Source: Candidatus Delongbacteria bacterium (GTDB lineage Bacteria; Delongbacteria; UBA4055). From it: a stretch of 7,841 bases of DNA. Under the pieces are notes generated by a model. That model was not told where the DNA came from. It saw only the letters and a list, made by a program, of their open reading frames with translations, and did not search any database. The number at the start of each line of letters is the position of its first letter. Positions within the stretch are counted from its first letter, which is position 1. Shown here one piece after another: positions 7,394 through 7,590 of the stretch. Made by a program: the position numbers and the translations under genes. The stretch covers positions 1-7,841 of the forward strand of contig JAFGUL010000026.1 in the NCBI GenBank assembly GCA_016938535.1. The letters run 5' to 3'.

Positions 7394-7425
7394 AAATAAA
7401 AAACCCCGATTTTTTGCTATCGGGG
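7394..7425 (-). terminator. Intrinsic terminator (minus strand)
   Basis: CCCCGAT (7404-7410) pairs perfectly with ATCGGGG (7419-7425) around an 8-base loop. On the minus strand the stem is followed by TTTTTTATTT (7403-7394). This is a standard rho-independent terminator for RNA arriving from the right, that is, from the putative small RNA and perhaps also the outer-membrane protein gene. It sits directly upstream of the lipid kinase gene, so it could also act as an attenuator. Confidence 0.88.
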
Positions 7426-7450
7426 CTGTATATCATTATCAGGTCTTTTG

Positions 7451-7503
7451 GAGCGGATCTCTCCTTTCCTGCGCTAGTAGGAGGTCTAAGGATCTTTCCG
7501 CTC
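7451..7503 (-). other. Predicted stem-loop body of the candidate small RNA
   Basis: The outer seven-base stem GAGCGGA/TCCGCTC (7503-7497 with 7457-7451) is perfect. The inner five-base stem CTCCT/AGGAG (7483-7479 with 7465-7461) has a 13-base loop; a shorter TCCT/AGGA hairpin with an 8-base loop is an alternative. Three GGA trinucleotides occur on the minus strand here. Pairing was found by eye; no folding energy was calculated. Confidence 0.5.
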
Positions 7504-7536
7504 ATCTGCCTGAATTCTATTTCAATTTACAACTGT

Positions 7537-7590
7537 AATTTACATCCCGAATGTTAGATTATTATTATCCGAATGTCAGGAAACTGTTAG
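7537..7590 (-). promoter_or_regulatory. P3: Pho-box-like array plus -10 upstream of the candidate small RNA
   Basis: On the minus strand hexamers start every 11 bp: CTAACA (7590-7585), CTGACA (7579-7574), ATAATA (7568-7563, weak) and CTAACA (7557-7552). Nine bases later comes TAAATT (7542-7537), followed by ACA exactly as in the array at 1554-1607. The third unit is the degenerate one, as in P1. The first hexamer overlaps the stop codon of the outer-membrane protein gene. No protein start follows at a suitable distance, which points to a non-coding transcript or a long leader. Confidence 0.72.

Follow-up and report, generated by a model that had tools for sequence, protein, structure and literature searches.

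The question raised by this locus is what lies in a 226-bp gap on the minus strand of a Candidatus Delongbacteria contig, between a lipid-kinase-like gene and the 3′ end of an outer-membrane protein (porin) gene. The gap belongs to a stretch of 7,841 nt (contig JAFGUL010000026.1), which was analyzed whole and is called the window here. A reading made earlier from the letters of the window (hereafter the sequence-only reading) had placed in the gap a phosphate-regulated small RNA with its own promoter and terminator. Comparison with other Delongbacteria genomes (designated G001, G003, G004, and G006, their stretches bearing L-numbers) supports the RNA and brings in three features absent from that reading, namely a link to the porin gene, a locus in G001 with no detectable promoter of its own, and a near-invariant core. 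The gap carries a Pho-type site, is conserved in three relatives, has no start codon common to the four sequences, and is linked to the porin gene; it probably holds a Pho-activated, trans-acting small RNA (sRNA) of Delongbacteria. The predicted RNA is about 134 nt long (positions 7397 to 7530, minus strand), with the 5′ end inferred from the −10 box and the 3′ end from the T tract.

The Pho-type promoter of the RNA (7537 to 7590, minus strand) is composed of four hexamers with an 11-bp period, CTAACA (7590-7585), CTGACA (7579-7574), ATAATA (7568-7563), and CTAACA (7557-7552), followed by a 9-bp spacer and the −10 box TAAATT (7542-7537). All of these elements had been recognized before, the hexamers being listed by their low ends (7585, 7574, 7563, and 7552); the third repeat, ATAATA, fits the consensus poorly. 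A search of the window with the consensus CTAACA-N5-CTAACA-N16-CTAACA-N9-TAAATT, allowing up to three mismatches, returned exactly three matches (1525-1472 minus, 1554-1607 plus, and 7590-7537 minus) and none in 200 dinucleotide shuffles, in agreement with the sequence-only reading, which had judged a chance match of the promoters very unlikely. When the hexamers are scored alone, the three sites give 22, 21, and 19 out of 24; in 300 simulations of the window, sites reaching 18 or more averaged 0.003 per window. The plus-strand site (1554 to 1607) is the consensus match of the START-like, PHP-glycosyltransferase, and amylase genes, with counterparts in G003, G004, and G001, and the other minus-strand site (1472 to 1525, three mismatches) lies upstream of a PhoB-like gene.

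Across the phylum, the same pattern with up to three mismatches occurs at 16 sites in 9 of 13 Delongbacteria genomes, and a reversed-pattern control gives 0. The genes behind these sites, named by eye from their translated starts, are six PstS-like (one of which passes its NCBIfam cut-off), one PhoB-like, two Na/Pi-cotransporter-like, two ArsC-like, one porin, three START/PHP-glycosyltransferase, and one aquaporin-like. On sequence grounds the CTAACA-type repeat is a Pho box common to phosphate genes of the phylum, its arrangement recurring ahead of pstS-, phoB-, Na/Pi-transporter-, and arsC-like genes. A weight matrix was built from 14 of the 16 phylum sites and the window site at 1554, without any RNA promoter; L072 (identical in sequence to L070) and L075 (near L073) were left out. 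It scores 31.5 at the RNA promoter of the window, 23.0 and 22.1 at the corresponding places in G004 and G003, and 30.7 at the site upstream of the PhoB-like gene, which is outside the training set; the background, 160,410 positions from six further loci, nowhere exceeds 8. A Pho site is thus present directly upstream of the RNA in two of the three relatives, and the Pho-type character claimed for the promoter holds on both counts; at the G001 RNA no Pho site is detected with the matrix. Across 82 stretches from G003 and G004, which amount to 2.66 million positions on both strands, only nine sites score above 10: those of the START genes (both genomes), of the ArsC-like, PstS, PhoB, and porin genes, one 166 nt upstream of the porin, and those of the RNA (both genomes). 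Four of the nine are training sites, and all nine fall in three stretches that had been picked for the RNA (L095 and L096) or for a known site (L139), the remaining 79 stretches having no site above 10.

The RNA itself is recognizable in the same relatives. In a BLAST search of the gap against six Delongbacteria genomes, the matches are G004 (85% over 113 nt, E = 2.8e-29), G003 (70% over 213 nt, E = 1.3e-14), and G001 (87% over 47 nt, E = 8.3e-10), and the next-best place (E = 0.007) is a terminator-like fragment. For comparison, fourfold-degenerate sites of the window and G004 are 39% identical in the porin piece (18 sites) and 41% in the amylase (145 sites), and over all pairs compared the identity is 29% to 41%, which is near saturation; judged by this yardstick, the RNA is conserved far above neutral expectation. 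The strongest conservation falls on a 20-nt core, AGACCUCCUACUAGCGCAGG (7468 to 7487, minus strand), which comprises a bulge AGACC (7487-7483) and an octaloop ACUAGCGC (7478-7471) and is identical at 20 of 20 positions in both G003 and G001 and at 19 of 20 in G004, with varying sequence around it. A covariance model of the RNA (R1), with which 150 of the 325 to 693 first-look candidates per genome were scored, exceeds 25 bits in only G004, G003, and G001 among 13 genomes, and the core with up to two mismatches is found in the same three of the 13. The next R1 match (24.6 bits, contig C76 of G001) was dismissed, as it is inside a protein-kinase-like frame. The exact core was not found in viral contigs, and plasmid records gave no match. 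The RNA-bearing genomes are those whose porin match is at least 50% identical; nine others have matches of 29% to 36%, and one has none. As the sequence-only reading had suspected, the RNA belongs to no recognized family, at least in that the covariance models of Rfam 15, run over the whole window, gave no match at E ≤ 1.

Could the stretch encode a small protein instead? A frame of 40 amino acids starting at ATG 7505 runs through the RNA and is open over the core in all four sequences, and the window and G004 share both the ATG and the peptide LRPPTSAGK. In G003 and G001, no ATG, GTG, or TTG lies ahead of the core in this frame. The core is also fixed at 19 to 20 of 20 positions, wobble positions included, while nearby fourfold-degenerate sites are only 29% to 41% identical. 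The only candidate from a protein search with the 40-aa sequence was an identical, sourceless entry, presumably that of the window itself; such a search detects proteins of similar length that have 5-residue words in common with the query. The small protein was rejected on the lack of a common start codon and the fixed wobble positions, and we regard it as extremely improbable; the stretch appears non-coding, as had been claimed.

A second alternative is that the element is a leader or attenuator, riboswitch-like, of the lipid-kinase-like gene. This gene starts about 37 nt past the T tract of the RNA on the same strand, and no separate Pho site for it was found in the window. Against this, the genes beyond the RNA differ between relatives: where the window has the lipid kinase, G004 has a convergent amylase, G003 a convergent RelE-like frame, and G001 an ArsC-like gene. 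The lipid kinase is not downstream of the RNA in G003 or G004, and where it does occur, in L001, L003, and L004, it is preceded by a different sequence. The cis leader was rejected, since the gene downstream of the RNA is not conserved, and its probability appears to us very low.

What is conserved is the gene on the other side. The RNA lies directly 3′ of an orthologous porin gene in four of four loci. In the window, the 3′ end of this gene (7587 to 7841, minus strand) precedes the RNA, and its full protein is very probably P0130 (456 aa), whose C-terminal 84 residues equal the window frame when compared by eye, so the porin of the window is very probably intact. The orthologue P0121 was modeled at a mean pLDDT of 70 as a β-barrel most like the AlgE, MOMP, and OccK porins. 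Each of the four RNAs has a Pho site somewhere upstream, be it its own or that of the porin, and the arrangement varies. G004 has Pho sites at both. G003 has one at the RNA, and the 11.8 kb of same-strand sequence available ahead of its porin contain none. Only about 10 nt separate the porin stop codon from the start of the RNA in G001, and the N-terminal half of the porin, found at the end of another contig, has a Pho site in front of it (45.1, a training site); P0132 is a full protein spanning both halves. The G001 RNA, for which no promoter of its own was detected, would have to come from the porin mRNA. In the G004 assembly, internal deletions seem to break the porin orthologue (L096, minus strand, about 12107-12696), where an assembly error is possible.

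This linkage brings in a third explanation, in which the element is a cis-acting structure in the 3′ untranslated region (3′UTR) of the porin mRNA, such as a stabilizer, a processing site, or a protein-binding site, with no free trans-acting RNA, and the Pho site only adds transcription. The constant position behind the porin and the G001 locus, so close to the stop codon and with no Pho site detected, are what such a structure would lead one to see. It accounts less well for a Pho promoter standing between porin and RNA in three of the four loci, for G003, where the promoter is at the RNA and none lies in the 11.8 kb stretch, and for G004, where the porin appears broken, yet the RNA is 85% identical to that of the window. 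We consider a purely cis-acting role unlikely, and the best reading of these loci is a new sRNA of the 3′UTR kind.

The predicted fold of the RNA is stable in the window. The segment 7531-7396 folds at −40.4 kcal/mol (z = −4.75), a value equaled by none of 200 shuffles, which agrees with the structured stretch described in the sequence-only reading. It includes a rod-like hairpin (7439 to 7513, minus strand) with helices P1 (7513-7509/7443-7439), P2 (7503-7497/7457-7451), P3a (7492-7488/7466-7462), and P3b (7482-7479/7470-7467). It is preceded by a 5′ tail with UUGAAAUAGA (7514 to 7530, minus strand), predicted mostly unpaired in the window (probability 0.82; 0.39 in G004) and, over 7531-7514, identical to the window at 15 of 18 positions in G004, 12 of 19 in G003, and 7 of 19 in the promoterless G001. 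The hairpin is followed by an intrinsic terminator stem-loop and T tract (7398 to 7427, minus strand), with the perfect 7-bp GC-rich stem CCCCGAT/ATCGGGG and the TTTTTT that had been reported. Terminator-like sites number nine in the window against 7.3 expected, which is not above chance, and that of the RNA has the most G-C pairs (five). Terminal stem-loops with T tracts are also present at the G003 and G001 RNAs.

In all four sequences the rod is compatible with standard pairing (81 of 81 pairs, or 81 of 83 when the full P3a of the window is forced on the relatives), and G003 has lost one base from each side of P3a, a paired deletion. Covariation in relatives had been proposed as a check of the RNA, and its outcome is mixed: two-sided changes occur at 4 of 21 hand-aligned pairs (P2 pairs 1, 6, and 7 and P3a pair 1, counted without a shuffle control), and the folding energies are not significant in G003 and G001. 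An alignment by MAFFT and RNAalifold has 18 pairs, three of them with two-sided changes. Conserved helices are suggested by these changes, which come from four sequences and a hand alignment.

How might such an RNA act? We infer that it is transcribed, that it responds to phosphate, and that the RNA is the active product. Under phosphate starvation, PhoB would bind the four 11-bp repeats and transcription would begin near 7530; the RNA would fold into the rod with its asymmetric bulge and octaloop, end at the terminator near 7398, and act in trans. It may descend from, or alternate with, the 3′UTR of the porin mRNA, and at a G001-type locus it would arise by read-through or processing of the Pho-controlled porin transcript. 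The core includes the anti-Shine-Dalgarno (anti-SD) string ACCUCCU, the complement of a strong Shine-Dalgarno (SD) sequence, which suggests pairing with ribosome-binding sites, as in NfeR1 (PMC10746234). In the most likely course, AGACCUCCUACUAGCGC would pair with the ribosome-binding sites of one or few mRNAs and lower their translation without Hfq. The octaloop is mostly unpaired in all four sequences (0.74-0.90), and the AGACC bulge is unpaired at 0.49-0.87. Hfq is usual for sRNAs in enterobacteria and is not universal. It was found in 0 of 13 Delongbacteria genomes in a search with PF17209, where a control search finds Hfq in 5 of 14 named genomes and other RNA chaperones were not searched for; without it, the RNA would act alone or with another protein. 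Base pairing with mRNAs is put forward tentatively, at somewhat less than even confidence, with the remainder going to a decoy as considered below; the type of target and the mode of action are the weakest step of the explanation.

Several results weigh against a conserved, base-pairing RNA of this design. As regards the structure, the comparison rests on four sequences only, and for G003 and G001 the minimum-energy fold differs from the rod. The z-scores of the whole RNA are −1.89 in G004, −1.62 in G003, and −2.10 in G001, and those of the hairpin alone are −0.79 in G003 and 0.03 in G001. When the core is fixed and its flanks are shuffled, 0, 4, 116, and 176 of 500 sequences fold equally well for the window, G004, G003, and G001, respectively. 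The duplex formed by the flanks is no better than shuffles in G003 (P = 0.14) and G001 (P = 0.16), with 0 of 1000 for both the window and G004, and a flank-swap test does not discriminate, cognate flanks pairing no better than swapped ones. The G004 RNA has no clear terminator stem. Within the core, half of ACCUCCU is predicted to be paired, UCCU being unpaired at only 0.07-0.44.

The search for targets belongs to the same side of the balance. In start regions it covered about 26% and 29% of two genomes (G003 and G004), with genes called by a simple script (447 and 508), and is a weak test. Matches to the core complement do not go beyond the span of the controls, in which the SD core is preserved: in G004, the 8-, 9-, and 10-mers of the complement number 6, 2, and 1 against control means of 3.3, 0.8, and 0.2, below the control maximum, and in G003 the matches are under the control mean at every length. 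Of 69 orthologue pairs, one ranks in the top 10% in G003 and G004 alike, against an expectation of 0.7 (1 to 3 with 12 shuffled cores). The Pho and porin genes tested as targets rank at 25% to 91%, in a ranking where the G001 porin was placed among G003 genes, the G004 PstS was entered twice, and the G003 porin was left out; the start region of the porin itself is not outstanding at 25% (G004) and 27% (G001). A 14-mer of the core complement, allowing up to one mismatch, has six matches in 13 genomes against 21 for the backwards control; of the six, three are the RNA loci and three are in coding frames of genomes without the RNA.

These results bear directly on a fourth explanation, a Pho-induced decoy or sponge in which the core binds a protein or the ribosome, for example by mimicking the anti-SD tail of 16S rRNA, and the RNA is no antisense regulator of particular mRNAs. 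A core that is near-invariant while its surroundings change, an octaloop mostly unpaired and a bulge half to mostly unpaired in all four sequences, and an mRNA target signal no higher than in controls would all suit a decoy. The reading has difficulties of its own: it has no known protein partner, ACCUCCU is only 7 nt long and half predicted to be paired, and the target tests that seem to favor it are the weak ones just described. A decoy in this broad sense is possible but doubtful, in our estimate, and the weight given to it overlaps that of the preferred sRNA, since the first half is common to both. The specific version, in which the RNA mimics the anti-SD tail or captures a dedicated RNA-binding protein, and by this means reduces translation or diverts one regulator when phosphate becomes scarce in a phylum where Hfq was not found, would be a rather improbable outcome.

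The preferred reading, a Pho-activated sRNA of the 3′UTR kind, can be compared with known systems. MicX and MalH (Vibrio cholerae and E. coli) are sRNAs encoded behind a transport gene; one of them has its own promoter, and the other is a processing product of the mRNA 3′ end (PMC9438474; PMC8081044 on MalH). They share with the Delongbacteria loci the occurrence of own-promoter and processed origin at one genomic place. The likeness noted is one of genomic place, and E. coli has Hfq, whereas none was found in the Delongbacteria genomes. OppZ and CarZ of Vibrio cholerae, described in PMC7398697 as autoregulatory sRNAs from a transcript 3′ end (OppZ from that of a transporter operon), likewise derive from the end of a protein-coding transcript; theirs are processed by RNase E, and in contrast to their autoregulation, pairing of the Delongbacteria RNA with the porin's own start region does not stand out. 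As for the core, the αr14/NfeR1 sRNAs of rhizobia have an ultraconserved anti-SD motif in unpaired regions with stems that vary (PMC10746234), and NfeR1 resembles the present RNA as a nutrient-stress sRNA with a conserved anti-SD motif. As described there, CCUCCUCCC occurs in every one of the three NfeR1 hairpins, and the sRNA is induced by nitrogen stress, whereas the Delongbacteria RNA has one hairpin and a Pho-type promoter; the hallmark CCUCCUCCC is absent from it, and its ACCUCCU occurs once with UCCU mostly paired. EsrL, a phosphate-induced sRNA of enteropathogenic E. coli whose gene is reported to be PhoB-bound (cited in PMC10294691, which itself saw no binding of PhoB at this place in K-12), is alike in its Pho control, but it is from another phylum and is likened by description only. 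PMC12506140 treats sRNAs that repress phoB and PMC12501420 small proteins that act on PhoR, each a separate question.

If the reading is true, no Pho-controlled small RNA of Delongbacteria had been described before this one, as far as searches of open-licence papers show. It would present one RNA family with an own stress promoter at three loci and a fourth seemingly reliant on the porin mRNA, and its near-invariant 20-nt core offers a sharp, testable target in a group where Hfq was not found. The definition of the Pho box provides a means of charting the phosphate regulon of these uncultured bacteria.

The rest of the window is in keeping with a Pho island. On the minus strand come first a partial PhoR-like kinase and a PhoB-like response regulator (738 to 1436), the presumed activator, for which TIGR02154 (PhoB) is the best NCBIfam model at 237 bits, under the model cut-off of 296. 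They are followed on the plus strand, behind the Pho site at 1554, by the genes of a START-like protein, an 889-aa PHP-glycosyltransferase fusion, and an α-amylase (1615-6493; START and PHP named by eye), which are kept near the RNA in G003 and G004. These genes may serve the replacement of membrane lipids or surface glycans when phosphate is scarce. The lipid-kinase-like gene (6503 to 7360, minus strand), 3′ of the RNA terminator, matches PF00781 only (73 bits). Its relatives with names are mostly Candidatus Delongbacteria, and the C-terminal PF19279 is in none of the first 37 matches listed, though most later ones carry it.

Further observations were made in the relatives. G004 has another strong Pho site (28.8) just past a PHP-domain-like gene (L015, 2477-2360, minus strand). 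Some 60 nt that end in GGGGGGTTTTTT come after it, and both precede the broken porin with the porin's own Pho site; the site is possibly the start of a second short Pho transcript, judging from these elements, and a site of this type was not found at the G001 or G003 porin. The frame convergent to the RNA in G003 (L016, 1698-2170, minus strand) is that of a RelE-like toxin and is preceded by a small partner, both named by eye. In both G006 and G003 (L077 and L078), an ArsC-like gene, likewise identified by eye, stands behind a Pho site of its own.
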